Source: Pardosa pseudoannulata (lineage: Eukaryota; Arthropoda; Arachnida; Araneae; Lycosidae). Taken from it: a stretch of 64,000 nucleotides of DNA. The notes under the pieces are model-generated. The model worked only from the letters and a program-made list of their open reading frames with translations. It searched no databases and was not told where the DNA came from. Location of the stretch: positions 91,444,190 through 91,508,189 of the forward strand of contig CM063508.1 in NCBI GenBank assembly GCA_032207245.1, read 5' to 3'. The translations under genes were made by a program, and so were the position numbers. Shown here piece after piece: positions 9,695 through 62,300 of this stretch (the stretch's first letter is position 1; each line of letters starts with the position of its first letter).

Positions 9695-9790
<96 letters not shown>

Positions 9791-18214: not shown

Positions 18215-18259
<45 letters not shown>

Positions 18260-18267
18260 ATATGTAT

Positions 18268-18332
<65 letters not shown>

Positions 18333-25100: not shown

Positions 25101-25625
25101 TATTATTAATATTTTTTATTTACTAAGAATACTGAGCATTATTGTAATAAGAAAAGTTACATTTTTCATAAGGATTACAGTTAGGACGAATTTTTGTTAA
25201 TTTAAAGGATTATATTTAAGGAAGTAAAATAAATTTACCAGTCAGTATAAATCATAGGATTTCCGTCGCTCCATCTGTAGACACCTTCTTTTGCTTCATC
25301 GTTGAGACCTGAATAGTCAAAGAATAAGAACATTAAATGTAAATTTTGTTTATGTAATATTAATAATAGCTGTTATGGAAAACAACATCAATAATTATCT
25401 GTTTTTGAACGTGTATAACGTTATTGCATATTGTCCTAATAGACTTATCATTAATATATATTCTTATATTTACTGCTTTTAATCATTATCTGTATACAGC
25501 GGTACATGATACTATTGTTACTATAGAATATAGAATAGGATTTCTGTCATTAATGACGACCATAAGAAAGTACATTCAAATATATTTTTATGTACTATAT
25601 TTATTTTCTTACACACTTTGTATAA

Positions 25626-25691
<66 letters not shown>

Positions 25692-35375: not shown

Positions 35376-38300
35376 AGGATATTTTAATTAAAGTAACCAA
35401 ATAAATTACAATTATACTTTAAAATAAATTTCTAGCAATTTTACACCAAAAATGACAACCTTTGGCAAAAGTCTTTATTTCTGGTAACCTTTGGCGACAA
35501 TTAGAACACCGTCTTAACTTATGCTTAGCTTAACTAATCTTAATAACTACTTTACGTGACTTAGTTTCGGTTGTTAACATCCTCCACATGGTATACTCTT
35601 AACACATTTGACTGGCTGGCTCCTTTCACCTTCCTGACACTAGATAAGCGAATATTTAACGTTTTGGCAGCAGAATGGCGATAATAATGTGATATATGCG
35701 TTATCAAAATCGAGTAATTTGATTTTAAATAACTTTTTTTACCATACAACAAATGATATTACTGAAGGTTTTATAGCTTATTAACATTACACATTTGTGT
35801 AAGTAGTTAACTGATGATGTGCACATTCATTTGCTATCAATATCGGTATTTATAAAAGTAATCAGTTTCTAGAAAATTTTCAGTTTATTTTGTTATGGTG
35901 GTATGGTGATATATGGCGAAACACATCTTACCAACAGATTTATAAGTTGCATAAAATCCTCTGTATCTACTTCTTGAATATCTAAAACAACTTTGAAGAT
36001 GGATTTTCATCAAACCATTGGAAATTATTCTCTTTGGGAACAATCGACCGTCAGGAGATTTGATTATCGAACTGTTACCATATCCAGAGTACACTGTCAA
36101 TTCATCTCTACACCTGCCAGAATCCATGCTGTCTTCTTTCTCTGCCAAGTCGTAGACAATGAAATTTAGTTCCACGTGCTTGCCTGGTTCCGGTTCAATA
36201 GACCACCAACACGATTTATCTTCTCCGTAATACCGAGGATGATTTGGGGATGATACCACTCCTTTAGGTGTGCTCAAGATGTTTCCACAATGCACTAGAA
36301 AATAGGCAGTTAAGAAAATTTTCAATGGCAATAACTAGTAATGGCTTAAGTTTTGAATTTAGAAGGCAAAAATATTAAATTTCTCGTTTACTTTGAACTC
36401 ATAATGAATGAATGCATGAAGCTCATGTATGAACCTCATAATTTAAGTAACAAAAATAGTTTTAAATATTATATCATAAACTTTTACCTTCAGTCACACT
36501 TCTTATACATCTAGGCCTCATATGTGTTTTTAGTTTAGAATGAGCTTCGATAATAGTTGGCAGTACATAACTGAAAAGTTCATGCCGTAGATTTGTCAAA
36601 GTGAATACAGAAACAAAATACTTTTGTTTAGTTTTTGTCTTTTAACTAAAAAGTTTTTTTTTTGAAAACCGTTGATAACAATGTAAAAAAATAAGTTTAA
36701 AATAAGTAAAAAAAATCATCTAAGTGCACTGCTTGTTTTATTACTTTCTCTGTTCTATTTATTTTGTAACTTTTCTTGTAACTACCTTCGAAGCCTCATA
36801 AGAGGATTTTTGAATTTTATTTAATAGACAAGCTAAACATATATTTTTTCTTTATAAACTAAAGAATTGTATTTATTATTTTTTTCTGTAATTTTCTTAT
36901 AATATTTTAACCTTGTTCTATCGTTTTCTCGCCTCTGTCGTTGAAAATTTTCAGCTCCCGTCTTTTTGTTTCCTCAGACATGCTTGAGAAATTTGGGAAA
37001 ATGAATGTTTTTTGTGTTGTTAAGAATGTTTTTAATTTCATGTGGATAGTATCCCCGGGCTCGGCAAGGTTGACTCAGCCTTTCATTCCTTCAGTAAGTA
37101 GACAAACTGAGGACCAAGCATGCTTAAGAACTAAAAACTGGGGGTTTCGCGTAAAGTTGACCACCTAACATAAACATATGCTTCGCACACCAGAGCCCTT
37201 AGCCTCGGAAATGGATATTAGCCCCATAGGCCCTGAGTACCTTGGGGATGTTGTGCTGAGGAATTTTTTTTTTTTTTTTATAGTATAAATGATTTCTGTC
37301 TCATAAAAGAGTCTGTCATAGACCACGAAAGCAAGATTTAATTTTAAGTTATGGTAATGTTTAGGTAGTTTTAGGTAGAAATGGTCTTTCCTTCTATAGA
37401 ATACTGGAAAAAAACAATTGGACCATCTCATCCTATGGGACTATCCAAAAATGATGTGTCACTTTTCTTCAATATTTTGGACCCCCTTTCCCTCCTTTGC
37501 CCCAAAGTGTCACACTTCAACACACCCATTTCTCCCGTTGCCTCCTTTCATACAATTTTTCTTAAACATATACTTACAGTTCAGAAATAAAGCAAAACTT
37601 TATAGATCATATTCCAAAATTTTACTTTTAAATTTTAATTATTTGTTTTCATGGCGTTTGTAAATATAATGATAACAATAATTCGTGTATTTTGTTCTCA
37701 TGAAACAAGAGTAAAATAAAAGAAACATAATTAATAAAATACAATGGCAAGATGACTTGTTGTACAAATATGTATAAAACAGGATTTCAACTCTTCTTCT
37801 TATTATTATTATTATTATTTACCCTCTACTTTGTAATATTTCCGACAGGCAAAATTCCCAAAGAATAAACCCAGTTAACATGATCTCACAGGAAGATTTC
37901 TCAACAGTACTCCCTGGGCCAAGCCCTCTAGTACTGGAGTAATTATTAGTGGTACTGCATCAGACTATGAGTATGAGTTGGCATGACATACACAGAAAAG
38001 TTAAATATGGGTAAAGCAATGTTTTATGCAATAAGGGATTCTTTACTGTTAACATGACTTGAATTACTGGTCCATTTAAGGGAATCAAGACCCCCCTGTG
38101 CAGAGTCCTGGCGAATCAACTATGGAGAGGACTATAAGAACCGCCCCTCTGATCGAGTTTAAAAGACCCGTTCGAGTCCCCCCTCCCCCACATCTTTTCT
38201 CTCATTGATAGTCTCAACTGTAGCAGCGTTCTTCAAGGCTCCAAGTTTGGAGGGTCAAATCCTAAGATTATTATTGGTCCAAACCTGAACTTTTGATTGG

Positions 38301-41300
38301 TCTAGTAATTCTCATTTAGGTCGTAAATGCGTTTTTCTCCTCGTCTGTGCTTGCACACAGTCTAGATACTCCTTTCATGGGAAAAACTGAACTATTATTA
38401 ATTGCTGTTATTCCAGTTACTCTATTTGTTTGCACAGTGATCTAATCTTATTTGAACTGGAATTCATTTATTGTTGCACTATTATATGCTTTCTGCCTGC
38501 CCAAACTCAAACATCTTTTTCATATTCACCTTCCTCCTCTTATTTACACTTTCTTTCATGTTATCCCAACTTCATGTCATTTGTTTATGTGTACCATTAC
38601 CAGTAACCTATGAACTTGAGGGTTTGGCCCAGGAAGTTCAGTTGCCAACTCTTCCTGTGAGGAGTGTAAAGATGGAGGAGGACAAAGCAGTGATAGCCAG
38701 TTTCTTTGGAGGGGCTGAAGGTTAAAGGTCATTTTGATTAATCGCAGTGAAAAGGGGTCAGTGGCTGGCTGTTATTGAAATTTGGAATTTTTTGCGTTGT
38801 TGATCGATCGCTTTTTTCGAAAGCGTGTAGGCAATAGCACACATTTTCTCCAGCTCTCGTGTATGGTCATAATACATGTTGGTCGAGAGGTTGAATTTGT
38901 ACAGATATTTGTAAATAACTTTGTAGATACTCTCATTGAACAATTAATTTGTAAGGAACTATAATTTTATTTCATTGCTGTTATTTTGACTGACAAGTCA
39001 TTACCGTATCAATTACAAAATATTTTATGTTACTTATTTTAAATATAGCTAATATTTTGTACAATGATAAATACTTCCAATTAGTTGTAAATAATTAATT
39101 TATTTATAGCCACATATTTTGGTAAGCTCTACATCTATTTCCCATACTCTTCGTTTCTTTTAATTATTGAAATCGCTTAAACAAGTTAATTTAAGAATAG
39201 GATATGAAAACATTAAATAAATTAAAATTCATATTACATCTCAATGTATACAAAAATTCTCCTAAATACTCGAGAATACATGTTAACATGTAACAGGTAG
39301 TTAATGGGATGTACCTGGAAGTAAAGGAATAATTCTAATTTACCTTTGTCCCGACAACCTAATATCTCCATTCTCAAACAGGGTTGTTCATCATAATCTA
39401 AAATCTTTATTTGAACAACCCTAGCTGGTATCCCTTTTAAAAGATTGAATCTCATTGGCAGATCATTATTGTAGGCAGGAGACTGGCATTGATCGCATAC
39501 ATAAACCTAAAATTTTGAAAATAAGAAAATTATAAATGCTAAATAATAGAAATAAGTTTCTTAAAATAAAAATCATGAATAACTATTGATTCACATATGA
39601 TAGATTCGAATTTTTATTGTATAAACAATTTTCGAATAAAAATTGGATCATTAGAATAAAATTATCTCGATTCCTAATAAGCTCAAAATTAAATAAAAAT
39701 CAAAGAGGTTTAGGGGTTACCCTTCAATTTAAACCTTGAACGAAAGTTAATTCCCTCTAACATAAAACACACTTCTTCAATGAATAAATTATTAGAATAC
39801 AAGCTTAGTGAATTTGTTTTCCACGGACGCGATTTAAATTCCAAACTAATAAAGCAATTTGTCGCAACGTCATGAATTACTATAATGCCCTTCCCATTCA
39901 TTTTCAGGTTTACAACAGCCAATAGACAAACAATAAACTGCCTTTCCGTTTGAAACTAAAGCCAGAATTGTCATAAATTGAAATTTGCCCTGCTGCGTGA
40001 AATCACTTTATAGAATATAATCGCAAAAAGTGAACAAAACAAAAGTTGATCTGTCACCGAGTTATTAAACCTACAAGTTGAGTTGTCAAGACCTTTTTTA
40101 TTATAACTTTGAAACAAAAAATTGATAAATTTTGAATAAAATCTTCAATAATAATTTAGAAAAGTTATTAATCTCTTATTTTTAAATCTTTATTTTCTTT
40201 TGAATATTTTAGTAACAGCTGCAAAATGTCAGACAGTTATCAGTAGAATATTTAGTACATATAGAATTCACATAAAGTAGAATATTTATATATAATCTGT
40301 GTTGTATAGTTTTAAATCAATATAAATTTTATTAAATGCTTCTTAAATGGAAAGAAAATTAGAATGCATTGAATGTATACTTCAGTTCATTAATAGTTAT
40401 CTTCAGCTTTCTGTAATAAGCGAAATAATGAAGGCGAAAAAATTACTACAAGGAATATTCAATTGCTTTTTGATGATGGAGGAACTGTCTACTTAGTCCA
40501 TGACAAAATAGAACTATGGGGCATTGTGCCAGCTAACGTTATCTAGAGTATAGTTTCTCATTATATTCCTCGGAGTATTGATTTTCTATTTTAATGACTT
40601 TGAAACTTTTGTATTTTCAACGACTCATTTGAAAAAAATTTACTCAGACGTTGGATTATACCATTTATAATATGCCAAAAAAAATTAATATAGTTTATAA
40701 TATAAAACTAAAACTTTTTTGTCTAAATATTGCTACAAAAAAGATTGCCTACTTCTTTTAAGTATTGTTAATTTTCTAGTACAAAAATAGTTTTTTCTTG
40801 ATAAGTTTGAATTTGTACAGATATTTGCAAATAACTACTTTGGAAATACCGACTTCTGTGGAAACAGTATTTTTTAAACATCAGCGGTCTTTCTACTTTT
40901 AACTAATATAATGTTTGTAATTCATAAATAACAATGGACCACTAATAAAGTAATAAATGAAACTTTGGTACGAATTACAAACTTAGTATTGACATTTATT
41001 GGGGCTTGGTTTGGTTTGGAGCGATATGATCTACTTTTTTGCACACGAGGGTTAATGAGACCAGGACCTACTGCTTAAAGCCGATTCCAAACGGCTACGA
41101 ACACCCATGTCAACAGCGGGATCTCTGCGTACTGTGCGAACTACCCGCGAACTCTGATACCGAAGAGCAGAGCTGTACCATTCGGTCATCATTCGATTCG
41201 GTGAGTTTCACAGAATAAATGACAACGAATTTCTTAAAATATTGCAGGTAGGCAATAGTGTGATTCAAAGGCTTAAAGGTTAGAGAGTTCACCTTTGTAT

Positions 41301-44300
41301 TAAATCCCATATTAGAGATATATTTCATAGCTTATCAACTGTAATGGAATATACGCAATATACGCGATTCCAGAATACGATAAAGCAAGAATTACTTTGG
41401 AAGACACCGAAGACCATGTGTTATAAATTGAAACGGAGTGCTTTCCACTTCTAATTACTGGAATTGAACGTGTTAAAATACGGGATTCTCTACGTTGTAT
41501 GTAGATTGTACTTAGTTAGTTTTGCTCTTAAATTGATAAAAAAAAAAAAACAGCAATTACTTTCTGTTGACCAACAGGTTCTTCTTCCCACACCCATCGA
41601 GCAGAATCGTTGCTGAAGAACAAGTTAAATTCTTTGACTATAGTCTTTTTCTGGGCACCGTTCAATCCTTGAAGAATTATTCCTGTTACCACTGTCATAT
41701 TTTGAAGATCTACCTAAAAGAAATATAAAGGGAAAATAATAGCATGAGAGGTAAAATTAAAACCATTTAAATGTAAACAAATATACAGTTGCAAATACAA
41801 AGTTGGTGTTCATTTTAATAATAAAGCTTGGGGTCGTCCACAGAAGATGTCCCACTTGGTGAGGAGAGGTGGGGGTGGGTCGTGAAATTGAGACAGTTTT
41901 TGACAGGGGGAGGGAGTAACCATAAGTGTGACATCACTGGGTTAAAATCATGTGGTTAAAATAAATATGTTTAAAATTAGCAGTAAAAATTTTGAAGTTA
42001 TTTTAAAATTATCAAAATTTGAAGTTATTTTCTTAAATGGATCGAAAACACCTTTCATCTGATTTTTTATTTCACTTAGATTCCTTTCTTTCGGAAAAAA
42101 AGAATCAGACAAGTTTTGAGAATATGATAAACTGAAATTCTTTATTTTGATGAAACCGCCCCCTCCGGTAGCCACACCCTTGAGAAAGATAATTTAGATA
42201 GCACTTTATTTAAGAATTAAGATATTTAGATTTAAAGCAAAATTATTAAATTCTATTTAAAACTCCAAAGTACTACTTTTTTAATTGCTCTTTTATATTA
42301 ATATTTTATTGATACTGCATGTAATGTTTTTGTTGTGAATCGTTACTTTTATATTGTACAAAATAAGGACACAAATCATTATTGTTGTTGTATCTAGAGG
42401 TGTCATTAAAACACATAGTTAAATTTTTAAAATAAAACTTGAAATGTTATCTGTAATGGAGTACTTTGTTTCTGCACTGCAAGTATATGTTTACGCAATG
42501 CTGCCTGAAATGTGACAAAGATTAGGGGAGGAGATGAGACATATGTTGAAGTGTGTCACTTTGTGACAAAAGGGGGGGGGAGGGTAGTCCAAAATATCTA
42601 ACAAATATGTGACATCTTTTATGGACAGACCCCATTCTGATAATACAGAATTTTCCTGATTAATTAAAAAAAAGTATTTTTTTCATGTACGGTGAAGATT
42701 TTTAAATTTGAAAAATGCCATTAAAATATTTCAAAAAAATATACATTTTATTTTCAATTTTACAGTGTTATTTAATGACAAATAAAGCTGATATATAAAA
42801 AGATAAAAGTATTTGATATATAATGATAAAAGATTTTGAAATTTGTATAATAGTTTAAATCATAATTATTTCCAAATACCTGTGGCTACGCCTCCATGGG
42901 TTTTCCGATCGATTATTTTCACACTCAAAACAACTCAACTTTTTTCACGTTTTTGGTTTTATAAAAGAATAAGGTTTTTTGTTGTTTTTCGATTGCATGC
43001 GTTTCGTCAGTGAAATTGTTGTCACCATTTTAATGCTGGATTGTGGTTTTCTTCATATGTTTGTTTTCGTTATATACGTGAATTAATATTTATAAAGTTG
43101 CACAACCACTTCACACCCATTCATCATATTTTGAATTGTCTTTGATGTTGCTCATTTTTATTTGTTTAAAGTGCAGAAGTTCTCACAAAAGAACTGACAT
43201 GTTGTTTGTTTAGAAATTCTATACTGAATATACAGAAAGTTAAAATATTCACATTACCAAATAGTGTGTTTAACTTCCATATCACTACTATTTTATTTAT
43301 TTAAATAAGACATAATCTATTTAAATATTACAAAAGTTTAGACCTACAATCAGCAATGTCATAGCCTCTGGCAGTTTTTATTTTCAGTCCTTCTGAGTTC
43401 GACAGAAGAACACTTTATAGGGTGTATTGTATGGCTTCAACTGAGTAATTTGACTTATAGAGTGAAAGTCCTTAGTTTAATAGGAAATGTAAGATAACGT
43501 TTCCATCATGCAAGATCGTTTGAAATAAAGAGTAGATAAAAGTTATTCCTAATTTTTATTTCATTGACAGTTTAATACTTTTGTATTCCATTACTGATAA
43601 CTTTAAATAGTGTTTAAGTTTTTGTAATTTTATAACACTAGGAAGCCTTCACATCACAGTCTGTGTTTTGGTTTGTCCCGGAAATAGGAACAGAGGTGTG
43701 AGAAAGTCCAAGAGAACAACAAGGAGAGATAGGTGGGGGATGAGAAATAGATAAGCACCTGGAAGGTCCAGAGAGAAGTATGCTGTTAAAAAGTGTAATG
43801 TAAATATTGTACACATACCTATGTCGTATTAAATGTTATAAATTGAAAAATGCTAAGTTACAGTAGTGTATTCTTACTTGCTGCTTTTTCAAGATTTTCA
43901 TTCGTAGGCATGTGACGCATATCTGTTTTGTTTTTGAAGGTTGCTGTTATTGTTATATTAAGGAATCATTATATTTCATTGTCGACTATAAAATTTTAAA
44001 AGTATTTTTAAGAGACTTGAAATTTGTACGATACTGCCCGTGCTCCCTCTAGCCTATTCACAAATGCCTATTTTTAAATATACTCACTAAAAATTGAGCT
44101 TAGAATTGCCAAGTAGATATGCAGCTAAGCTAAGATACTATTCAAATAGTGCTTTGGATTAGATTTCTTGGCTAATATTATATTATATATCATATAAAAT
44201 TATTATAAAAAAGTGGACAAATAACAAAGAGTGACAAGCTTAGTGCAAGTTTTCAATTTTCATTACCCTTAATATTTTTTTAAATTTTTGATAACATCAC

Positions 44301-47300
44301 ATCTCTAAAATATAATGATTACTAATTTATGCTATTTATCAGCTAAGTACCAATTAGTGATTGACATCGGTATGTACTATCAAGTCTTAGAATTTTATGC
44401 ACAATAAAGTTCTACAAACTTACTTCTTGTGAAATGATATAATTTTCAGTGTATGTTTGCATATTTTTCCCTATGAAATACCTCCAGTACCTTCCAGTAA
44501 ATGGGTCACCAACGAGGACCATCTACCTTAAAATAAAGGTTTAGTGTGTTTGGTGTTTAATATTTTAATATTGCATTATAGTAAATACAGTAAAATCTCA
44601 ATGTAACACATACAAATACAAAACAGACAAAATAACACTGGTTACAAATGGTAATAATCATTTTTAAGCTAAGATGATAATAATTACAAGATAAATGCAT
44701 ATAAATAATACAAAATCGCAGTAATAGTGAAAGCTATATATTCAGAATCAGCCTTGTTACGGGGCCTGCAGATTTCTCTGAATTTTCCATACAACCGAAT
44801 TGTTTATGGATGAGATATTTTGTTACAAATTAGCGTCACCAGACACCCTTAGGTCTGGTCTTCGCTTGAAATAACCGTAGTGAGGGAGCACAAATAGGTA
44901 GTGGTCGGGCAAACCCGGCAAATGGGTTAGCAGAAATCGTCCTGTCGTCACAGTATTAAATAAAAGTTTTCGCTTTATACATTATTTTATTCGGTCTAAG
45001 ACGGCCAAATAACAAGTGCCCACAGGGGGCACAAAACATAACAGACCCTGAGGGTAACGTTTATTAAATAAAGCTGAATCTTTTGAGGTGTGTGATTCCT
45101 CTTAAAATACAAACAGTAGATAATTATTTTTATGTATATTTTCGTCTCATTACGTACCGTGAATTCTTTTAAGGAGTCGTTAAAACCAGCACACCAACCG
45201 TGGTTTGCATTTAATCGGCCATTGGTGTAATAGTAACTATCCCAATCGTCACTTGAAGACGCACTAATTTGGTCGTCGAATATTTCTTCGGATGCCATGC
45301 CAAGTGGTTGCCCACATGATTCTGAAAAGAAAAAATATTAGTTATTGTGTAAGTGATTCATACTAAATATGCATTTTTTTCAATTAAGGTAATAAAGGAA
45401 TTTTAAAATGGCAGAATTCGATTAAATATATGATTTATCACTGAAAACAAGCGAAGAGTGAACTACATAATGAAATGAAATGTTTTGAATCGCAGATATT
45501 ATATACTTATTAACCCTTTGCACTCGAGGGCTCCGGAGCAGAGCCATTTAAAATTTGTTTTCCAACTCGAGGGCTCCGCTATGGGGATAATGCAAATAAT
45601 TTTCAGTTTCTAACGTAAGAACATAAACAAACTGTAAAAACTAATTAATTTGCATTGTTACCCTAGTGGAGCTCTCGAGTTTGAAGACAAATTTTAAATG
45701 ACTCAGCTCCGGAGCCCCTGAGTGCAAAGGGCTAATAATCGTTTGTGAGCCACAGTAGCTCAGTCAGCAAATGCAAAGCTCTTGTAACTGGAGAGTTGCG
45801 GCTTCGAAGTCCGAGTCATCCTAAGATCCGCCGTGTTCGTTAAAGATGACTGGGGCACGTAAAATATGTTCGCTATCACAAGTCCTTCCAGTTCTGAATC
45901 AATACCTCTGGGGGTGGCAGGCCTAACCTGTGGGTCTTCTACGTGGTTCTTGCTTCAAAATTATGTAGGACCCATTTGAGCACAAGTCGTTCTTTCACCC
46001 TAGTGGTGCTTGTTAAAAACGAAAGGCTCAACCCATTGTCTTAATACGAGTAGCCACTGGCTCTATCTTGCTTGGTTTGACCAAGTGGCATAAGACAACA
46101 ACAATAATCATTTGTGAGAATTTGTGACATTTAATTGATTGTTTATTGTAATTTAGGATATATTAGATACTGCAAGAACGTAAGACTATAAATAACTTTA
46201 AATTATTGGATATAATAAGCTGAGTTCGGAACCTTATAATAGGTAATTAATAATAAACTAACTGAAAGATTGCCGAATAGTAGAGAGCTGCTCTATGGTA
46301 CCAGAGTTTACGGAATCGAATCCCGCTGCTTGCATGAATGTTTGTAGACATTCAGAATTGGCTACAAGCAGTAGCTCTCGGTCTCATTAACCTTTGTGAG
46401 CCTAACAGAAGACCGTAGCTCTCCAAACCAAATCTAACATTAAAATAGATAACATTTATGATTTTAATATTACTTACTTATTCCAATTACACGTATTATG
46501 CGATTATTAACGATTCTTTGAGAAAATTTATGACATTTAATTAACATTTTACAGTAGTTTATGGCATATTAAATAATTCAAGAATGTAATACTACAAATT
46601 AACTTTTGTACTCTTCATTTAGTTAAGTTCGAAATCACTTTATTGGTAAATAGCACTAAAACCAATAATATCTAATTCATTTCTTTAATATATGACAAGT
46701 CTTTAAAAATTTATTGTTAATGTGGCCATACATTTAAATATTTAAATTGGATATAGAGCTGCTGCAAGGTACTCTCATACATTTACGTCACCATTTTCAA
46801 GGTAGCAATAAATGTACAAAACAACTTTAAGAAAAGTACAATTAAAAAAATTAACACAGAACATTGATTCGCAGCTTCTGACCAGCTGTATTATCTGTTC
46901 GGTCTTGAGTTCCGTAATTAGCCGGCCACTAGATGGCGCTCTATATGCTATATTTATATTAATTCTGATGTGTTTTGTGTGTGCTCGTGAAATAAAACCT
47001 GTGTTATGGAAATCTTTAAAGTCATTTTTTTCATTTTTACTACTTTTAATACCAAAATTTAGTGCTAAATCATCTCAATGTTTACTTCAAACCAGGACAA
47101 AACGGTAAGTCATTTTTTTAATTTTATTTCCCATGGTTGATCTACATTTTCGTTTTCGGTTTTAATTGTAACCAGTCCTTGCTAGATTAGTTTGGTTTTT
47201 AAAACTAAGATAATCTTATACATTATCAATGTGAGCTAACTCTATGGATGTGATAGCAGACTAAGCTGCCTATATTATTAATTCAAGCAAAGTGGCTAAA

Positions 47301-50300
47301 AAGAGACATAACTGCTTAATCTGTTTTTTTTTCTGATACTGTGTTCATTTGGATTCATGATTCAGCTTTTCCGTTATCCTTATTTATTTATTTTTTTAAT
47401 TTCTGCCTTGATTTTGATTTGTTTCGCTTTATTTTTATACTTAAATTACAGTCACATAAAATTCTTACATGAATTCATGTATATATTAGGAAAGTTTAAT
47501 GCTAGTTTTCTCAGATATATACTTAACAGAAGAAACATGTTATACAATTACCTGTTCCATAGACTTTCATTTCGCAGAACTGAAGACTGTCAAACCTGTT
47601 GTACACTTGCACAGTGACATACTGGCCGTATATTGGTTGCGAACAGTTCACCTTCAAGACTGTGAACTCCGGGTTCGTCACGGGATAAACAGCACAAGTG
47701 TACGCATTACTGAATTTTCCGACTTCAGTGTGTGGTATTCCATAAGACAAGTCATCGTAGTAACGACTAAATGTTTCCACCAGCCCACTCTCGTCGACCG
47801 TGACTCGAAATCCTCGAAGACTTTGAGCTTAAATAGATAATATATATAAGATAAAGGATAACATATTCATAGCATAATGTTGTTTTATACTATTGGGTTG
47901 TTCGGAAAGTAATTTCGTTTTGTTTTGTGGAAATGAAAGACAGTTTTCGTATAATAAACAAATACTTTATTAAATTATATATTGGCCGTTCTGGTTCAAC
48001 ACCTTTTGCCATCTTTCTGGTAGTAGCATAATTCCACGCTCATAAAATTTTTGGTCTTTGCTGGCAAAAAACTGATCGAGGTGGTTTTTGACCTCCTCAT
48101 TTGAGGTGCAGGTTTTACCGTCTAAAAATTTTTGGAATGACCGAAACAAATAATAATCCGATGGTGCCTGGTCTGGAGAATTTGGTGGGTGTGGTATTGT
48201 ATCCCATTTAAGCTGTAAAAGCTTTTGGTGAGTGACCAAACTTGTGTGAGGTTTCGCGTTGTCTTGGTGAAACAGTACACCTTTCCTGTTGATTAGTTCT
48301 GACCTTTTCTGTTGAAGTTCATCATTCATTTTGTCCAGCTGATGACAGTAGACTTCCGAATTAATCGTTGTGTTATCCGGTAAAAGCTTAAAAACAACGA
48401 TTCCTTTAAAATCCCACCAAACAGACAGCATCACCTTTTTTTTGGTGAATATCGACTTTGGAAATGGTTTGAGCCGGTCCATCTTTTTTACTCCATGACC
48501 TCTTGCGTTTGACGTTGTTGTATATAACCCATTTTTTGTCCCCAGTGATGATGTGCTTCAAAAACGGATCATTTTCGTGACGTTTGAGAAGCGAATCGCA
48601 GACGTCAATGCGGCGACACAGATTTCTCTCTGTGAGAATATAGGGAACCCATACATCGAGCTTCGAGGATAATACCAGGCCTCAAGTGGTCATAAACTGT
48701 TGAATTTGATAAATTTAACCTCAATCTGATCTCACGTGTTGTTATTCGCCGGTTCGCATCAACTAATGCCTTTATCGCGTCTTTATCAGCTTCCACCGGA
48801 CTTCCCGAACATGGTGCAGCTTCGACATCAAAATTGCCGGATCGAAATTTAGCGAACCAGTTCTGGCACTGGCGTACTGTCAACACACCTTCTCCATACA
48901 CATCGGTCAATTTTTTTCTGGCTTGAACAGCATTTTTACCCTTTCTTTAGTAAAACAGTAAAATATGTCGAAAATTCTGCTTATCGCTCTCCATATTTAA
49001 GAGGGTACCAACCAAAAACTACTGCGTAGAATTAATTGGAATTTTTCACACACAAGCCTTGCTATATGAGCTATCAAAGCATATAAAAATTATACGGCTT
49101 AAATGTGAAGTTGGGTGAAAAAAAATACAATTAAATCCTCTGAGGGAAAAAACGAAATTACTTTCCGAACAACCCAATAAGATTTATAGTTTAAATAAAT
49201 CCAAAACTTTCATCTTTCACTCAAGTAATGAAATCTAAAAGATTATTAATATCAAAATTTAAAGCCAACCACCAAATGCTGGGTATAATTTGAGCTCAAT
49301 TTTAAAATTTCCCTTTTATTTTAAATATGTTTCTAATAATTTTACACGTTATTCTTTAACAAATAATGGTTGCGCCCAGAAACCCCGTGTTAAATTTTTT
49401 TCTCTGCTTCTTAAAGACATATGAACAAATGATTTTATTTCCAATGATTTTAACTCTTCAAACTAATAACATGCAGGAATTACACTTAGTTGTATTTTCT
49501 TTTTTGAAATATATATCTTAAACTTACTTTAGGTAGAATTCGATATTTTTACGCTCATAACCCCAAATAAAAGTGCAGAGTTAGCAAGAAATATTTTCCC
49601 CACTTCTGAGGAGTCTAAAATGCGTTTTATTGGACCAAATGAGATGTAATTGGAACTATAGATAAATCAAATGATGCGCTTGATATTTATTACATAATAA
49701 TCTGTAGTACAAAAATTCACCTAAAAGTGGCGCTGTAACACATATGGTATTTATTAAGTCTCATTAAGTTAAGTTGAGCATTATTAGTTTCTTGTCTGCA
49801 CATCATGCCTACGTTGCAAGAAAAAAGGACAAGGTTTACCGTCAAATGCTAGCGTCTGTGCTATATCTGAACGACAGCATTTGGCGCCATGTTCTTGATA
49901 TTCCGGCAAACTCATTCCGGATAACTGTGGAAAATATGGTTCTGCAATTACAGCATACTGTTGAACATGATGGGGGCAAATTGAGCATTTTAAATACTTT
50001 TTTAAATAATATTTAGCATTTATAAGCACATTAAATGTGTTTATGGTTATCACAGCGCCATCTATAGGCGGATGTTTGTATTAAATTGTTTTATGTAATA
50101 AATGTAAAGTGCATCATTTGAATTATGTGTGTTTCAATTGTATCTCATTTGGACCAATTTAAGATACTCTAGAGTCCTCAGAAGTAGGGCACTAAATTTC
50201 TTTCTAACCCTGTACTCAAGCAAATAATAGTTGTGATTTACTTACACTATTGTTTAGCAATTAATCAGGCCATTTTAATGATAAATATTCATTGATATTC

Positions 50301-53300
50301 GAAAATAAATAAAATGTAGAACTTTCCCTCCCTACAAAGGGGAGGCTTTCGGAATTAAACCAACCCTGCCCTATTCCTTCCTTTAAATAATTTTAAAAAC
50401 TTTCCATATATATTTTAAATTTATGAGGTTCATAGATAACATCTACAAAAATGGATTTAAATACCAAAGAAATTTTAATCCTGAAAGTCAAAGGTCAAAT
50501 TCCTGTTGTATTATGTAACCAAGTCAAAAGTAAATCATTTAAAAAATACTTACATATATCATAATAACAGTACGACAGAGCTATCCCTTTTTCAAATCCA
50601 CTCTTATCTACTTTAGGGTGAGGTTGCTTATATTTAGGCATACCACCTACAGTATCTTCCTTGTTCCATGGTATCACTGGGGGGACATCCTCATTGAAAT
50701 GAAAAAATTGCTCTTTTTCAAACATACCATCCACCTTCTGGCATGATTTACCGTATCTGAATAAGTAGAAAGGTGCGTCATTTGGCAACTCGATTAGATT
50801 TTCTGCACTCCCATCGTCTCTACAGCAGAAGTAAATTGTAGTAGTTTGCCGTGTATAATTGCCCCTGGGAAAATATCCCCTTACTGTGCTATCGGATAGA
50901 ATATCTTTGGTATCAATCCAAGTTATATAACCACTTTTAAATCCTGTTGGGCAGCGTTCACCGTACTGAAATATGCAGTATTCTCCTGGAGGCCATAGTT
51001 TTGTATTTTTGAAATCTACGACAGTACGCACTTTCATACAAAAATGTTGGAGGACGCCACTTCTTTGTACTGCTCCTCCTGAAGATTTTCTTTGGAGACC
51101 ACCTGTAAAAAGAAAATCTCATTAATATGTGTAATAACAAATTACAGATAGTATGAGTGATATGTATAATAAATGATTTAAGAGGGCATCCTACCTTTCG
51201 AGCTGAAAAGTATTCATTAAGTGTTTGATTGAATATAAAATAAAAAGATCTACTCAATTTAGAATATATTTTTTCTAGATTATTGATAAGGATCTAACTC
51301 TGATGACTGAATATAAAATAAAGAGATCTACTCAATTTAGAATATATTTTTTCTAGATTATTGATAAGGATCTAACTCTGATGACTGAATATAAAATAAA
51401 GAGATCTACTCAATTTAGAATATATTTTTTCTAGATTATTGATAAGGATCTAACTCTGATGACTGAATATAAAATAAAGAGATCTACTCAATTTAGAATA
51501 TATTTTTTCTAGATTATTGATAAGGATCTAACTCTGATGACTGAATATAAAATAAAGAGATCTACACAATTTAGAATATATTTTTTCTAGATTATTGATA
51601 AGGATCTAACTCTGATGACTGAATATAAAATAAAGATATCTACTCAATATAGAATATATTTTTTCTAGGTTATTGATAAGGATCTAACTCTGATGACTGA
51701 ATATAAAATAAAGAGATCTACTCAATTTAGAATATATTTTTTCTAGATTATTGATAAGGATCTAACTCTGTTGATTGAATATAAAATAAAGAGATCTACT
51801 CAATTTAGAATATATTTTTTCTAGATTATTGATAAGGATCTAACTCTGATGACTGAATATAAAATATAGAGATCTACTCAATTTAGAATATATTTTTTCT
51901 AGATTACTGATAAGGATCTAACTCTGATGATTGAATATAAAATAAAGAGATCTACTCAATTTAGTATCAATGATATGTATAATAAATGATTTAAGAGGGC
52001 ATCCTACCTTTCTAGCTGAAAAGTATTCATTAAGTGTTTGATTGAATATAAAATAAAAAGATCTACTCAATTTAGAATATATTTTTTCTAGATTATTGAT
52101 AAGGATCTAACTCTGATGACTGAATATAAAATAAAGAGATCTACTCAATTTAGAATATATTTTTTCTAGATTATTGATAAGGATCTAACTCTGATGACTG
52201 AATATAAAATAAAGAGATCTACTCAATTTAGAATATATTTTTTCTAGATTATTGATAAGGATCTAACTCTGATGACTGAATATAAAATAAAGAGATCTAC
52301 TCAATTTAGAATATATTTTTTCTAGATTATTGATAAGGATCTAACTCTGATGACTGAATATAAAATAAAGAGATCTACTCAATTTAGAATATATTTTTTC
52401 TAGATTATTGATAAGGATCTAACTCTGATGACTGAATATAAAATAAAGAGATCTACTCAATTTAGAATATATTTTTTCTAGATTATTGATAAGGATCTAA
52501 CTCTGATGACTGAATATAAAATAAAGAGATCTACTCAATTTAGAATATAATTTTTCTATATTATTGATAAGGATCTAACTCTGATGACTGAATATAAAAT
52601 AAAGAGATCTACTCAATTTAGAATATATTTTTTCTAGATTATTGACAAGGATCTAACTCTGATGATTAAATATAAAATAAAGATATCTACTCAATTTAGA
52701 ATATATTTTTCTAGATTATTGATAAGGATCTAACTCTGATGACTGAATATAAAAATAAAGAGATCTACTCAATTTAGAATATATTTTTCTATTATTGATA
52801 AGGATCTAACTCTGATGACTGAATATAAAATAAAGAGATCTACTCAATTTTAGAATATAATTTTCTAGATTGATAAGGATCTAACTATGATGATTGAATA
52901 TAAAATAAAGAGATCTACTCAATTTAGAATATATTTTTTTTCTAGATTATTGATAAGGATATAACTCTAATGACTGAATATAAAATAAAGAGATCTACTC
53001 AATTTAGAATATAGTTTTTTTCTAGATTATTGATAAGGATCTAACTCTGATGACTGAATATAAAATAAAGAGATCTACTCAGTTTAGAATATATTTTTTT
53101 CTAGATTATTGATAAGAATCTAACTCTGATGACTGAATATAAAATAAAGAGATCTACTCAATTTAGAATATATTTTTTCTAGATTATTGATAAAGATCTA
53201 AACTCTGATGACTGAATATAAAATAAAGAGATGTACTCAATTTAGAATATATTTTTTCTAGATTATTGATAAGGATCTAACTCTGATGACTGAATATAAA

Positions 53301-56300
53301 AATAAAGAGATCTACTCAATTTAGAATATATTTTTTCTAGATTATTGATAAAAGATCTAACTCTGATGACTGAATATAAAATAAAGATATCTACTCAATT
53401 TAGAATATATTTTTTCTAGCTTATTGATAAGGATCTAACTCTGATGACTGAATATAAAATAAAAGAGATCTACTCAATTTAGAATATATTTTTCTAGATT
53501 GTTGATAAGGATCTAACTCTGATGACTGAATATAAAATAAAGAGATCTACTCAATTTAGAATATATTTTTTTTCTATATTATTGATAAGGATCTAACTCT
53601 GATGACTGAATATAAAATAAAGAGATCTACTCAATTTAGAATATAATTTTTCTAGATTGATAAGGATCTAACTATGATGATTGAATATAAAATAAAGAGA
53701 TCTACTCAATTTAGAATATATTTTTTCTAGATTATTGATAAGGATATAACTCTAATGACTGAATATAAAATAAAGAGATCTACTCAATTTAGAACATATT
53801 TTTTCTAGATTATTGATAAGGATCCAACTCTGATGACTGAATATAAAATAAAGAGATCTACTCAGTTTAGAATATATTTTTTTCTAGATTATTGATAAGG
53901 ATCTAACTCTGATGATTGAATATAAAATAAAGAGATCTACTCAATTTAGAATATATATTTTCTAGATTATTGATAAGAAATCTAACTCTGATGATTAAAT
54001 ATATAAATAAAGAGATCTACTCAATTTAGAATATATTTTTTCTAGATTATTGAATAAGGATCTAACTCTGATGACTGAATATAAAATAAAGAGATCTACT
54101 CAATTTAGAATATATTTTTTCTAGATTATTGATAAGGATCTAACTCTGATGACTGAATATAAAATAAAGAGATCTACTCAATTTAGAATATATTTTTTTC
54201 TAGATTATTTATAAGGTTCTAACTCTGATGACTGAATATAAAAATAAAGAGATCTACTCAATTTAGAATATATTTTTTCTCGATTATTGATAAGGATCTA
54301 ACTCTGTTGATTGAATATAAAATAAAGAGATCTACTCAATTTAGAATATATTTTTATCTAGATTATTGATAAGGATCTAACTCTGATGACTGAATATAAA
54401 ATAAAGAGATCTACTCAATTTAGAATATATTTTTTTCTAGATTATTTATAAGGTTCTAACTCTGATGACTGAATATAAAATAAAGAGATCTACTCAATTT
54501 AGAATATATTTTTTCTAGATTATTGATAAGGATCTAACTCTGATGACTGAATATAAAATAAAAGATATCTACTCAATTTTAGATATATTTTTTCTAGATT
54601 ATTGATAAGGATCTAACTCTGATGACTGAATATAAATAAAGAGATCTACTCAATTTAGAATATATTTTTTCTATATTATTGATAAGGATCTAACTCTGAT
54701 GACTGAATATAAAATAAAGAGATCTACTCAATTTTAGAATATATTTTCTAGATTGATAAGGATCTAACTATGATGATTGAATATAAAATAAAGAGATCTA
54801 CTCAATTTAGAATATATTTTTTTCTAGATTATTGATAAGGATATAACTCTAAATGACTGAATATAAAATAAAGAGATCTACTCAATTTAGAATATAGTTT
54901 TTCTAGATTTATTGATAAGGATCTAACTCTGATGACTGAATATAAAATAAAGAGATCTACTCAGTTTAGAATATATATTTTTTCTAGATTATTGATAAGA
55001 ATCTAACTCTGATGACTGAATATAAAATAAAGAGATCTACTCAATTTAGAATATATTTTTTCTAGATTATTGATAAGATCTAACTCTGATGACTGAATAT
55101 AAAATAAAGAGATGTACTCAATTTAGAATATATTTTTTCTAGGATTATTGATAAGGATCTAACTCTGATGAGCTGAATATAAAATAAAGAGATCTACTCA
55201 ATTTAGAATATATTTTTTTCTAGATTATTGATAAAAGATCTAACTCTGATGACTGAAATAAAAATAAAGATATCTACTCAATTTAGAATATATTTTTTCT
55301 AGCTTATTGATAAGGATCTAACTCTGATGACTGAATATAAAATAAAGAGATCTACTCAATTTAGAATATATTTTTTCTAGATTGTTGATAAGGATCTAAC
55401 TCTGATGACTGAATATAAAATAAAGAGATCTACTCAATTTAGAATATATTTTTTCTATATTATTGATAAGGATCTAACTCTGATGACTGAATATAAAATA
55501 AAGAGATCTACTCAATTTAGAATATAATTTTCTAGATTGATAAGGATCTAACTATGATGATTGAATATAAAATAAAGAGATCTACTCAATTTAGAATATA
55601 TTTTTTCTAGATTATTGATAAGGATATAACTCTAATGACTGAATATAAAATAAAGAGATCTACTCAATTTAGAATATATTTTTTTCTAGATATTGATAAG
55701 GATCTAACTCTGATGACTGAATATAAAATAAAGAGATCTACTCAGTTTAGAATATATTTTTTCTAGATTATTGATAAGGATCTAACTCTGATGATTGAAT
55801 AATAAAATAAAGAGATCTACTCAATTTTAGAATATATATTTTCTAGATTATTGATAAGAATCTAACTCTGATGATTAAATATAAAATAAAGAGATCTACT
55901 CAATTTAGAATATATTTTTTTCTAGATTATTAATAAGGGTCTAAACTCTGATGACTGAATATAAAATAAAGAGATCTAGTCAATTTAGAATATATTTTTT
56001 CTAGATTATTGACAAGGATCTAACTCTGATGAACTGAATATAAAATAAGAGATCTACTCAATTTAGAATATAATTTTTTCTAGATTATTGATAAGGATCT
56101 AACTCTGATGACTGAATATAAAATAAAGAGATCTACTCAATTTAGAATATATTTTTTATTAGATTATTGATAAGGATCTAACTCTGTTGATTGAATATAA
56201 AAATAAAGAGATCTACTCAATTTAGGATATATTTTTTCTAGATTATTGATAAGGATCTAACTCTGATGACTGAATATAAAATAAAGAGATCTACTCAATT

Positions 56301-59300
56301 AAGAATATATTTTTTCTAGATTATTGATAAGGATCTAACTCTGATGACTGAATATAAAATAAAGAGATCTAGTCAATTTAGAATATATTTTTTCTAGATT
56401 ATTGATAAGGATCTAACTCTGATGACTGAATATAAAATAAAGAGATCTAGTCAATTTAGAATATATTTTTTCTAGATTATTGACAAGGATCTAACTCTGA
56501 TGATTAAATATAAAATAAAGATATCTACTCAATTTAGAATATATTTTTTCTAGATTATTGATAATGATCTAACTCCAATGACTGAATATAAAATAAAGAG
56601 ATCTATTCAATTTAGAATATATTTTTTCTAGATTATTGATAAGGATCTAACTCTGATGGATGAATATAAAATAAAGAGATCTACACAATTTAGAATATAT
56701 TTTTTCTAGATTATTGATAAGGATCTAACTCTGATGACTGAATATAAAATAAAGAGATCTACTCAATTTAGAATATATTTTTTCTAGATTATTGATAAGG
56801 ATCTAACTCTGATGATTGAATATAAAATAAAGAGATCTACTCAATTTAGGATATATTTTTTCTAGATTATTGATAAGGATCTAACTCTGATGACTGAATA
56901 TAAAATAAAGAGATCTACTCAATTTAGAATATATTTTTTCTAGATTATTGATAAGGATCTAACTCTGATGACTGAATATAAAATAAAGAGATCTACTCAA
57001 TTTAGAATATATTTTTTCTAGATTATTGATAAGGATCTAACTCTGATGACTGAATATAAAATAAAGAGATCTACTCAATTTAGAATATAATTTTTCTAGA
57101 TTATTGATAAGGATCTAACTCTGATGACTGAATATATAATAAAGAGATCTACTCAATTTAGAATATATTTTTTCTAGATTATTGATAAGGATCTAACTCT
57201 GATGACTGAATATAAAATAAAGAGATCTACTCAATTTAGAACATATTTTTTCTAGATTATTGATAAGGATCTAACTATGATGATTGAATATAAAATAAAG
57301 AGATCTACTCAATTTAGAATATATTTTTCTAGATTATTGATAAGGATTAACTCTGATGACTGAATATAAAATAAAGAGATCTACTCAATTTAGAATATAT
57401 TTTTTCTAGATTATTGATAAGGATCTAACTCTGATGACTGAATATAAAATAAAGAGATCTACTCAATTTAGAACATATTTTTTCTAGATTATTGATAAGA
57501 ATCTAACTCTGATGATATTACAGTGGACTCTGCTTAATGTGATCGCTGTTAATGTTATCAATCGCTTATTGTTATAAAAATCACTTAGTCCCGATTTTCT
57601 CTATTCATTTGTAAGCTAAAATTATCGCTTTATGTGATCAATACATCAGTTAATGGGATCAGTTTTCGAACCTCATTTTAACTGGAAAAGGAATATTTAC
57701 AATATATTCAGAAGGAACCCATTATTTTGTTTCCCTTCGCTGTTGTTTGAATTTCCAAGAATTCTCTTCTTCAACCTAGGGAAATGGGGAATGACAAAGG
57801 AGTGGAAATTTACATGTTCCTGGAATATTTCAGAAATACGCACACCCTGCTGGGAGTCAATGGTTGTCAGATAAGCAGAAGAAAACACATTATTATCGGA
57901 ACTGAGAAGGAGCGTATGCACATTTTATGCCTTGTTCGCTTACATAGAGCTTGTCGATATGGAAGCCAGAAAGCGAAACAATTTAACATTAAAACAAAAG
58001 ATCGAAGTTTTAAATAGTTATGACAGGTTGATTATGATTACGAACAATTTATCAATGAGCTTCCTAGAAAAAATTGTAGTCAGTCATCAATTGATCAATT
58101 TTTTATTATGTATACAATTCTTATGTTTTAAAGGACAATATACAATACATAAATATAAGGTGAGTGTTTTCATTTTGTTTTGAAATTTACTTCGTGGGAA
58201 TTCAAGGGGGGGAGGGGTAAATTTATCTAATTTTGCATATCGTTTTTTGTTATCCATATGTTATGATCAAAATCACGGTGTCTCAAACTGATTTCATTCA
58301 GCGGAGTACATTGTATTGAATTTTGTTAGAAAAGAAATATATTTTTTATAAAAAATAAATTATATACCTTGAAATTAAAAAAAAAACGAAAGAAAAGAAA
58401 GAAAGAAAAAAAGGAAACCTACTTAATTGTAAAACATGTTTTGTATTTGTAAATTAGAAACTAATATTTTACATCAAATACAAGTTTATTATTTTTATTC
58501 TGTGAATCTAAATTTTAGAGCAAAGTATTTAATGTTATAGCCTGGTAAAAACTGAATTTTTAAATTTTCAATTTAACAGTTTTTATTTATTTATTATTAT
58601 TTTTAATTTTTGATTGTTAGGTATCTTTAAAGTTCTGGTTTTCAGAATAAAGCAGAAATTTTGTTTCAATTGGATATAGCAATTTAGTTTCTAATAATAT
58701 GTCTCAAATTTCTTATTGCTCATAAGTAAATTTCATTTATTTTATTTGGTGTGTATCTTTTTGTTATTTTAAAATTATACTACTTGAAATAACACAGCGA
58801 ACTATTCTTTTCAAAGTGTTATTAACATGGTTTCCGCGCACCTGGAAAGTCAGGGAAAGTCATGGAAAATCATGGATTTAGACAATGCATTAATTTTGTC
58901 ATGGAAAGTCACGATTTTTCAAGTAAAATGAGTAAAGGTCATGAAAAGTCATGGATCCGCTAAACTACCGATTAAATAAAATGTTTTGAATTGTTTAATT
59001 CTATTTTTACTTGTCATTTGGCTGAAGTTTCTGAGTTTGTTATTTATGTATTATCCTATTGACCTTATTGCCAAGTAAAATTTGTTCAACAAGGAAACTC
59101 AAAGCAAGCTTAACGGGTGGGTAAATGTATATTATTTTGGTCTTTTCTTAAATTGTAGATTAAAATTTTTATTAATACAATAATAATTATTTTAGATTTT
59201 TGCACAAAATATAAGTTTATCTCTAGGGATATTGTATATAAACATTATAGGGTATTTTGGCTATTATTCATGGTCACCGGATAATACCAAAGTACCCTGA

Positions 59301-62300
59301 ATTCAAATTGGAAACATTTTGATTGATAAATTGCTATATGATTGAACTTAGGTATGTAGATCAACTATTTATTTTTATGTATGTGAGTTATAACATAAAG
59401 TAAGTTTATAGTTTTTTATGATAAAATTCCTGTAATTTTTCTAAAAGCATATATTTTATTTGTATGTACATCAGAAGTTTTATTCATATATACTTTAACG
59501 AAGGCTTTTTAAAGTCACGGAAAATGATCTGCTAAATCAGGGAAAGTCATGAAAAGTCATGGATTTGAAAAATTTTATTTTGGCTGTTACCCTGTATTAA
59601 AGAGCTTGCAAACATTCCATCTAAAGGGAGAAGAAAGTTACATTCAATTATGAATCTAAAAAATAGATTGTTAAAATGAAGATTTTATGTCTTGAAAGTT
59701 AGCATGTTCTATTGAATGTCTGGAGAAAATAATCATTAAAACTTAACCTTTCAGCAGCATTCCAGGAGACCAGTGTGCGACTTTGTTATCTTGCACAATA
59801 TCGTACTGCATGTCTTGATATCGGTAACCCGACTGCCACTGGAAGCCTCTTCCTACCGGACATCCTGACACTGGCATTGGGAGACCATACTGACCATCAG
59901 GCCATAAAATTGTGTCTTTTTGCTGTTGGGAAACACAGACATTGTAGTAGTTTATGCAAAAGTGGATGTTAAAATAAAAGTTAGTATTACCGCGTTTATC
60001 ATACAGTCAAAAAGGTATAAATCTTCAATAAGGAAATGACAAATAATTAAACAAAAGTTTTGAATTTGGATTTTTTTTCACAACAAAACTGCTTTGGTAT
60101 GCAAACATTTATGCTTTGTAAAAAATTGAATTTAAGTATTAAATTTAAATTTATTATTAATCATTGTTATAAAAGTTTTGCAAAAAAAAAATATTAAAAC
60201 CTTTTTAGGCATTTGATAATCCGATAAATAGGGCACTAATTTCAATAATGAGTCCTGAATTTGTTAAATTAGTATGGATGTATGAAAGAATTGGTTTTAA
60301 TCTGTAGATTCAAATCAAATCTCAAAGTTGGTTAATCTGTATAGATCTAAAATAGTCTAATGAGCTACAGATTTACCAACTTTGAAGTTGAGTTTGGTTT
60401 GGAGCGTTACGGCCTACTGTTTTGCTCACGATGGCTCATTAGATCGGGACCTACTGCTTAAAGTGGATTCCAAACAACTACAAACAACTATGCCAGTAGA
60501 GGGATTCGAACCCACGAACTCCGGTAACTAAGAGCAGCGCTCTACCATTCGACTATCGAAAACAACTTTGAGAAAGAAAAAAGTTGACCGCATCGCTGTA
60601 AACCGAACTTTGATACATTCCTATATTTCCTCCGCGCCCACATTTTTGTTATCCTATGGTTATTAAATTATTATTGGTGGCTCACCATAAAGGATAGAAT
60701 ACGTCCATAAAAGTACAAACTAAAGAATATCTGCTCAGTATAACTTTGTCTTCTGACAAGTTAAATGAAAGTTATGAAATGACTAATTTCAAAATTTAAC
60801 ATTGAAAAGAAATGAAAGCAAAAGTTTTTTTTTTATTTTTTTATTTCTTACAAAGTAGCAAATCCAGAGGATTTAAAAATTATATTTAAATTCAAATAAA
60901 CGCTGAACGAATTTTATTTTAATTGATATTTTTGGTAACGTTATAAATTACAGATTACAAACCTTAGGTATTTTCCATAGTTTCTTCTGTACACGAACAT
61001 GTTTTTCCCAAAACTTATAAATTGAGTATTCTTTTTACTGAATGGATAGTTAAACAGGACCACTCTTGTATATTTAGGTGTTTCGAACATCTCATTTTTA
61101 TCATCGTGAAAGATTATCCCACTTTATTCAGAGTTAATGCTCTATGCTTTTCAGGGACTGCTTAATATAGGAACAACTTAAATTGTTACAGTTAACCATA
61201 GATAACACGAAAATGTTAGAGTACAAAAGAAAAGTAGTTGATTAAAGGCAGTGACAACTTTGGTTTTTATTTCAAATATTTTTCTACTGCATATATGCAT
61301 TATATTTATAAAGAAACTTTTAATAATTAGAAATCATGAGTTTAAAAACTGTTTATTTTTGATTGTTTAGAGTGACAAATTTTAGAGACACAAATAATCG
61401 TCATTGTACAAAGCAGTGACATACTTTTTAGTGGAACATATTTTATTTCAAATATTCTTCTTCTGCATAAATACATTATATTTATAAAGAACCTGTTAAT
61501 ATTTAGAAATCATGAGTTTATAAACTGTTTACTTTTGATTATTTAGAGTGGATGAAACACAAATAATCATCATTGTAAAGGCAGTGACAGACTTTTTAGC
61601 GGAACATATTTTATTTCAAATATTCTTCTTCTGCATAAATACATTATATTTATAAAGAACCTTTTAATATTTAGAAATCATGAGTTTATAAACTGCTTAC
61701 TTTTGATTATTTAGAGTGAATTAAACACACAATCATCATTGTACAGTGACAGACATTTTAGCGGGACATATTTTATTTCTTAAGGTATAATCCTCTTTTA
61801 AATCTCACAACCTTATATTTGTTTAATCGAAAAGACTTCTTTTGAAGAATCGTATATTTATATTAAGTATTAATACCTGGGATTCACCTTTAGTGCTGTA
61901 TAATTCAAATCCATATACAAGATAACGCTTTTGAAGGTTGACTTGCCACCACGGATCTCTTTCAAATCCAGTTGCAGTACAAGTTGTGGTGCTGCCATCT
62001 AGTGCCAAAAAGGCACTCCTAGAATCCTTTGTACTCGATTGCTTTGCAGGTTTCCCTTCGGCAACGTTTGTCATAGGCGTAACAGTTGCTACAAAATAGA
62101 AAAATAATATTCAGAATATCCCAAAATCTTTCCATTTTCCCAACAACACAGAAGGAACAACAAACTAAAAAATGTGTATTTATTTGTTTATTTATGTCAT
62201 GACATTTCATTAAAAAACTTTTCAGCTCACAGCTATATTTCAAAGTTTTGATAATTTGATTAAGGACTTGATTAGCTATTAAATAGAAGTTTGAAATTAA

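Follow-up and report, generated by a model that had tools for sequence, protein, structure and literature searches.

Which protein carries an ApeC domain enclosed by the two halves of a lectin domain, and what could such an arrangement be for? The question is raised by a stretch of 64,000 nucleotides from the spider Pardosa pseudoannulata (assembly GCA_032207245.1, contig CM063508.1, positions 91,444,190 to 91,508,189), referred to here as the window. An initial annotation made from the sequence alone placed in it an ApeC domain nested inside a fucolectin-like (FTP) lectin fold. The exons of this nest belong to the ectodomain of a giant GRL101-like leucine-rich-repeat (LRR) G-protein coupled receptor (GPCR). 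The best overall explanation, to which we assign a probability of about 0.7, is that ApeC was shuffled into the FTP domain, which would now present it as a ligand head of the receptor.

The four exons of the nest form one coding unit on the minus strand. The N-half of the FTP domain (F-type lectin fold) is encoded at 61877-62088 (phase 1 in, phase 0 out) and contains the h2DGx cation motif and the cysteine at model position 36. ApeC is divided between exons at 59748-59922 (PF16977 positions 1-49; phase 0 in, phase 1 out) and 50554-51102 (positions 49-208; phase 1 in and out), and the FTP C-half, with the other three FTP cysteines, lies at 47552-47827 (phase 1 in and out). Each exon is preceded by AG and followed by GT. 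Joining them yields an uninterrupted reading frame of 403 codons, and the intron phases are 0, 1, 1, in agreement with the initial annotation. Its claim of a full ApeC domain between the halves also stands, since the Pfam match covers 208 of 208 positions of PF16977, spread over both exons (E = 1.7e-58). By itself the FTP N-half matches positions 2-41 of PF22633 with 31.7 bits, and the joined halves match positions 2-91 with 47.0 bits (4.1e-12). A genome-wide search found no second ApeC match in the 2.4-Gb genome. The intron between the second ApeC exon and the FTP C-half holds a mariner (Mos1-type) transposase remnant in overlapping frames (47970-48946, minus strand; Pfam HTH_48 5.3e-13, Transposase_1 1.5e-21).

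The architecture of the gene identifies its product. The initial annotation was right about the nest but too narrow, as these exons are part of a gene that spans 93 kb or more and runs out of the window at both ends, and it missed that the product is a GPCR. The exon model comprises 23 minus-strand exons, 18 and 5 of them phase-matched around one gap exon that was later located at about 7243-7326, and 60 kb of flank was fetched on each side of the window. The ectodomain consists, in order, of a contactin-associated-like segment, a CUB-like segment, a CUB domain, the FTP domain enclosing ApeC, an F5/8C domain, two CUB domains, a C-type lectin domain, four LDLa repeats, a further contactin-associated-like segment, three LDLa repeats and LRRs, and is followed by a seven-transmembrane (7TM) domain. 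The upstream flank contains the first contactin-associated-like segment, the CUB-like segment and the CUB domain, while the remaining LRRs and the 7TM exon lie past window position 1 on the same strand. The 7TM exon (window coordinates -8241 to -9125) is 83% identical to Argiope. Searches with the exon model led to proteins from spiders, ticks, scorpions and mites, up to about 2,600-2,700 residues long, with ApeC and a rhodopsin-type 7TM domain present; the closest relatives came from orb-weaving spiders. LDLa repeats, LRRs and the rhodopsin-family 7TM domain all occur within one protein, and PF00001 was found in P0012, P0018 and P0020. The receptor records are named GRL101-like, contactin-associated-like, cubilin, relaxin receptor-like or uncharacterized, and the GRL101 label used here comes from the Argiope relative, recorded as 'G-protein coupled receptor GRL101 like protein'. 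When the Argiope protein was compared with the whole genome (18 of 517 first-look candidates scored), 16 of 19 matches fell at this locus and the other three were 7TM matches with 36-38% identity. By its architecture, the window almost certainly encodes most of the ectodomain of a chelicerate GRL101-like LRR GPCR.

The profile alignment indicates that ApeC is inserted in the loop CDR4 of an F-type lectin domain. A profile built from nine joined FTP domains, with ApeC removed, matched FBP32 (6.9e-34), the lectin domain of lectinolysin (1.9e-17) and eel agglutinin (1.5e-13) in the PDB, and in the alignment the N-half stops at residue 79 of eel agglutinin. This is within CDR4, taken here as agglutinin residues 79-86, and agrees with the initial annotation, which had the loop between the halves carrying the fucose-binding arginines. 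In eel agglutinin His52, Arg79 and Arg86 are described as binding fucose; Arg79 and Asp81 are in CDR4, and Cys82-Cys83 contacts the sugar (PMC5712786). Residues were counted in 29 aligned nests, those of 28 relatives and the window. Arg79 is lost, the CDR4 that holds it being replaced by ApeC. The His52 site, after the CT motif, is Ala in 14 nests, Ser in 14 and Thr in one; the histidine that had been reported as replaced by Ala in the window is thus absent from all 29. At the Arg86 site there is Ser (18), Lys (9), His (1) or Gln (1). The fucose triad (HX24RXDX4R/K) is therefore lost, and the domain appears to have an F-type fold without being, by motif, a canonical fucose-binding lectin.

The framework of the lectin domain has been kept. 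The Asp of h2DGx is found in 29 of 29 nests and the Gly in 24. The positions of Cys50-Cys146 and Cys108-Cys124 are also conserved, with Cys36, Cys356 and Cys373 present in every nest and Cys396 in 28 (P0001 is cut short). Seven ApeC cysteines are found in all 29 and the eighth in 28, P0005 being without that stretch. Since one FTP cysteine is in the N-half and three are in the C-half, the equivalent of Cys50-Cys146 must bridge the halves if the fold is like that of the agglutinin. In the predicted fold of a relative, both halves together match one complete F-type lectin and form one jelly roll around ApeC, so the failure of the halves to pack, an outcome considered in the initial annotation, was not found. 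Features shared with eel agglutinin (AAA, 1K12) and striped bass FBP32 (3CQO) are the jelly roll (in the relative's model), h2DGx, the two disulfide positions and a CE motif near the end. The domain differs from them in having a whole ApeC in place of CDR4, in the loss of His52 and Arg79, and in Ser, Lys, His or Gln instead of Arg86.

The nest is widespread in chelicerates. The relatives comprise 38 chelicerate or chelicerate-like proteins (P0001-P0028, P0033-P0041 and P0047), and in 28 of them the FTP profile is split around ApeC, with an N-part at about positions 2-71 and a C-part at about 66-163. The same order of FTP-N, ApeC and FTP-C, for which a profile search had been suggested, is found in Ixodes, Dermacentor, Rhipicephalus, Argiope, Caerostris, Larinioides and Parasteatoda and in Centruroides, Leptotrombidium, Blomia, Oppia, Sarcoptes and the sea spider Nymphon. 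The ApeC of Nymphon is without a stretch holding one of the eight cysteines. If the Nymphon record is sound, the nest dates from near the root of Chelicerata. The ten exceptions are an ApeC-only open reading frame (ORF; P0006), two proteins that end within ApeC (P0007, P0008), two C-half fragments (P0009, P0010), one protein that starts past the nest (P0047), and four tick models without a match to FTP-N and early ApeC (P0021, P0035) or to FTP-C and F5/8C (P0036, P0039). The unmatched letters of P0021 and P0036 resemble out-of-frame reading, and the same is supposed for P0035 and P0039 from their absent matches. These four are predicted isoforms of Dermacentor, either misannotated or truly spliced in an aberrant way near the nest.

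The ORF of P0006 stands alone (232 residues, on a contig of 1,891 bases), and its ApeC ends in ...YYDICK, as does the window ApeC when read through its donor. This suggests that another species encodes ApeC in one exon that has the same phase-1 donor. The ApeC structure predicted for P0006 has good confidence (pTM 0.82) and no convincing PDB match, and on this model the fold of the ApeC family may be undescribed.

Long ORFs on contigs of transcript size support the nest as a part of spliced mRNA. P0033 (tick-like, 2,752 residues) and P0038 (scorpion-like, 2,734 residues) come from contigs of 8,568 and 8,534 bases, the former being the longest of three in its cluster, and the ORF makes up 96% of each contig. 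Both begin with a Met and continue to the tail at the C-terminus, in the order FTP-N, ApeC, FTP-C, F5/8C, CUB, CUB, C-type lectin and so on to the 7TM domain. Since the gene is at least 93 kb long in the window species, spliced mRNA is the simplest reading of these contigs, and FTP halves joined to other exons, which would have spoken against the nest, were not found in them. We take the 'lgn' label to denote assemblies of public sequencing runs.

Ordinary FTP exons in other parts of the genome suggest how the nest arose. Two of them, L015 (C6:153.30 Mb) and L016 (C12:30.30 Mb), have GTAAG donors in CDR4, in both cases in phase 1 and 25 codons and one base from the start of PWW. The exon after L015 begins in phase 1, and no next exon was recognised for L016. 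In the window, the FTP-N exon ends in phase 0 at 26 codons past the start of PWW, the interval being free of indels. L019, a third and more distant FTP-like exon, again has phase 1 at its end, three codons further on. ApeC therefore sits in the positional counterpart of the intron of ordinary FTP domains, with the donor shifted by 2 nt, which makes intron-mediated exon shuffling the likeliest origin. An insertion by this route is probable from the exon comparison; the ApeC exons would have entered a pre-existing CDR4 intron before sea spiders and arachnids separated. That split took place over 400 million years ago.

An explanation in which the halves are not one domain, but remnants of two FTP domains or the flanks of a separate ApeC gene within an FTP intron, is extremely improbable. 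Tandem FTP domains do occur in other lectins (FBP32), and for the window species the evidence is at exon level. Complementary halves in 28 of the 38 sequences, an odd number of cysteines in each half and the relative's match to one complete lectin domain nevertheless point to a single domain, as do the lack of a further ApeC match in the genome and the unbroken ORFs that pass through N-half, ApeC, C-half and 7TM domain on transcript-sized contigs.

The proposed function builds on the loss of the fucose site. Since the FTP domain has lost its own sugar site, it may now be a rigid mount for ApeC, stapled by disulfides. The ligand-contacting head would consist of ApeC together with the CUB, C-type lectin and F5/8C modules next to it, and binding would be relayed through the LRR and LDLa part to the 7TM domain. 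By analogy with other ApeC proteins, a role of ApeC as ligand head comes a little short of even odds. The ligand would most likely be a polymeric surface glycan such as peptidoglycan, although a peptidoglycan-like ligand in particular is doubtful. Short ApeC proteins of amphioxus and molluscs are reported to bind peptidoglycan and agglutinate bacteria (PMC9585378, PMC8361754), and binding of Lys-type peptidoglycan has been reported for other ACPs.

Several points qualify this combined explanation. The initial annotation had proposed that a sugar-binding loop was replaced by a second recognition domain. The replacement itself is supported by the profile alignment, the division of the cysteines into one and three, the predicted fold and the conservation. 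However, a direct FTP ancestor of the nest was not found, a sugar-binding ancestor being reconstructed from ordinary FTP domains, and the term recognition domain draws on ApeC proteins of other phyla. In addition, the claim that skipping ApeC breaks the frame, so that it is no optional cassette, holds for the main donor but not for a predicted alternative donor, AAAG|GTGAAT at 61886-61888 (minus strand), which is in phase 1 and fits FTP-C. With this donor the FTP-N exon would stop at 61888, 11 nt before its main donor, and both ApeC exons could be skipped.

The alternative donor would make ApeC optional, and the receptor could switch between two heads, one of them a closed FTP domain with a very short CDR4. 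The alternative donor outscores the main one (4.6 against 1.0 with a generic donor matrix), the product without ApeC is in frame (...LYSTK-A-QSLRGF...), and the joined FTP domain retains its match of 4.1e-12. On the other hand, a closed FTP domain without ApeC was found in none of the 38 relatives, in a database clustered at 90% identity, which could hide isoforms. Residues past the alternative donor are retained in spider relatives (STKSENQ, SAKSESK), whose models thus use the longer form of this exon. Such switching is distinctly unlikely. The main rival gives ApeC a structural role as a spacer, or a role in contacting a dimer partner or a co-receptor, with a peptide hormone at the LRRs as the true ligand; this has a substantial but lesser chance of being correct. 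GRL101/LGR5 has been put forward as an IGF receptor (PMC8286064, PMC7357564), and the LRR and 7TM parts match the structures of relaxin receptor 1 and LGR4. ApeC is also no more variable than its neighbours between the window spider and Argiope (68% identity; the FTP halves have 65% and 84%). However, the IGF proposal is based on receptors that these sources describe with LRRs and LDLa repeats only, and ApeC domains tested elsewhere are reported to bind microbial wall polymers. That a pycnogonid and arachnids have kept an insert of about 240 residues, eight of them cysteines, suggests a role beyond spacing.

The remaining exons of the window, all on the minus strand, complete the ectodomain. 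The CUB exon that precedes FTP-N has its 3' end at 63974-64000; it runs on past the window, and its phase-1 donor fits the FTP-N acceptor. Downstream of the nest are an F5/8 type C (discoidin) domain at 39344-45321 (exons 45158-45321, 41561-41713 and 39344-39506), a CUB exon at 35932-36294, a CUB domain at 31272-34059 (33927-34059 and 31272-31564) and a C-type lectin-like domain at 23546-26710 (26486-26710, 25239-25308 and 23546-23799). Four LDLa exons follow at 13294-19230 (19057-19230, 17239-17355, 15406-15525 and 13294-13416). The contactin-associated/fibrinogen-like segment at 7243-10344 (9803-10344 and the former gap exon) is labelled from database names and has no Pfam match. Three LDLa or LDLa-like exons, two of them detected by Pfam, are at 3401-4824 (4672-4824, 3602-3718 and 3401-3517), and an LRR N-cap-like exon (1959-2064) and the first LRR exon (1785-1853, phase 2) are at 1785-2064. 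Outside the window, on C12, the first CUB-like exon (67659-68036) has a second, partial and stop-containing copy at window coordinates 68253-68401, probably a decayed exon duplicate. Cytoplasmic tail exons at -14124 to -14351 and -15782 to -15988 are 82% identical to Argiope and 65% identical to Centruroides, respectively; a stretch of the tail resembles part of a protein kinase by eye, with no Pfam match.

The position of ApeC sets this receptor apart from known systems. Apextrins, amphioxus ACP1-5 and mollusc CgACP1/BgACP1 share with it a full-length PF16977 domain and eight cysteines. In the proteins described, however, ApeC is in line, often C-terminal, and secreted, while here it is nested in another domain of a GPCR. 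GRL101 and arthropod LGR5 have the same LDLa repeats, LRRs and rhodopsin-type 7TM domain, but the ectodomain found here, with CUB, F5/8C, C-type lectin, FTP and ApeC, is far larger; Lymnaea GRL101 is described with twelve LDLa repeats and six LRRs. Lectin-bearing ectodomains likewise occur in snail GRL101-like proteins (SudRes2), described with C-type lectin, LDL, LRR and 7TM parts and encoded within a schistosome-resistance locus (PMC12297450), and in the sea urchin proteins P0042 and P0045, which have F5/8C, CUB, C-type lectin and 7TM domains in an order similar to that of the window receptor. ApeC is not listed for the two sea urchin proteins, and their FTP-profile scores are below 4 bits. 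These Lytechinus GRL101-like proteins also have kringle domains, and very large lectin-bearing LGR ectodomains are not restricted to chelicerates. ApeC proteins are stated to be absent from the major arthropod lineages except arachnids (PMC8361754), so ApeC in arachnids was already known. The initial annotation knew of no protein with this nesting, and no account of ApeC nested in an F-type lectin, or of ApeC as part of a GPCR, was found in the literature searched. That literature did not cover the survey of ApeC cited for arachnids by PMC8361754 and PMC9585378, which may list the domains of these receptors, nor two papers that mention both apextrin and G protein-coupled receptors. What appears to be new is the position of ApeC within an F-type lectin and its presence in a GPCR, the receptors themselves being database entries already.

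ApeC has been described as a mostly aquatic immune domain that insects and crustaceans do not have. In the present receptor, a GPCR of a land animal, a single copy is enclosed within another domain, in an arrangement common to sea spider, spiders, scorpion, ticks and mites, and a recognition loop has apparently been replaced by a whole domain by way of an existing intron. It is a long shot that the GPCR senses a bacterial or other surface polymer directly through an ApeC head on the sugar loop of a dead lectin, perhaps removable by splicing to give two heads per gene. If true, this would be a cell-wall-sensing LGR and a natural case of the grafting of a whole domain onto a loop of a lectin scaffold. 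The deletion or expression of one domain would offer a way to tell whether orphan receptors of the GRL101 type respond to hormones, sense microbes or do both.

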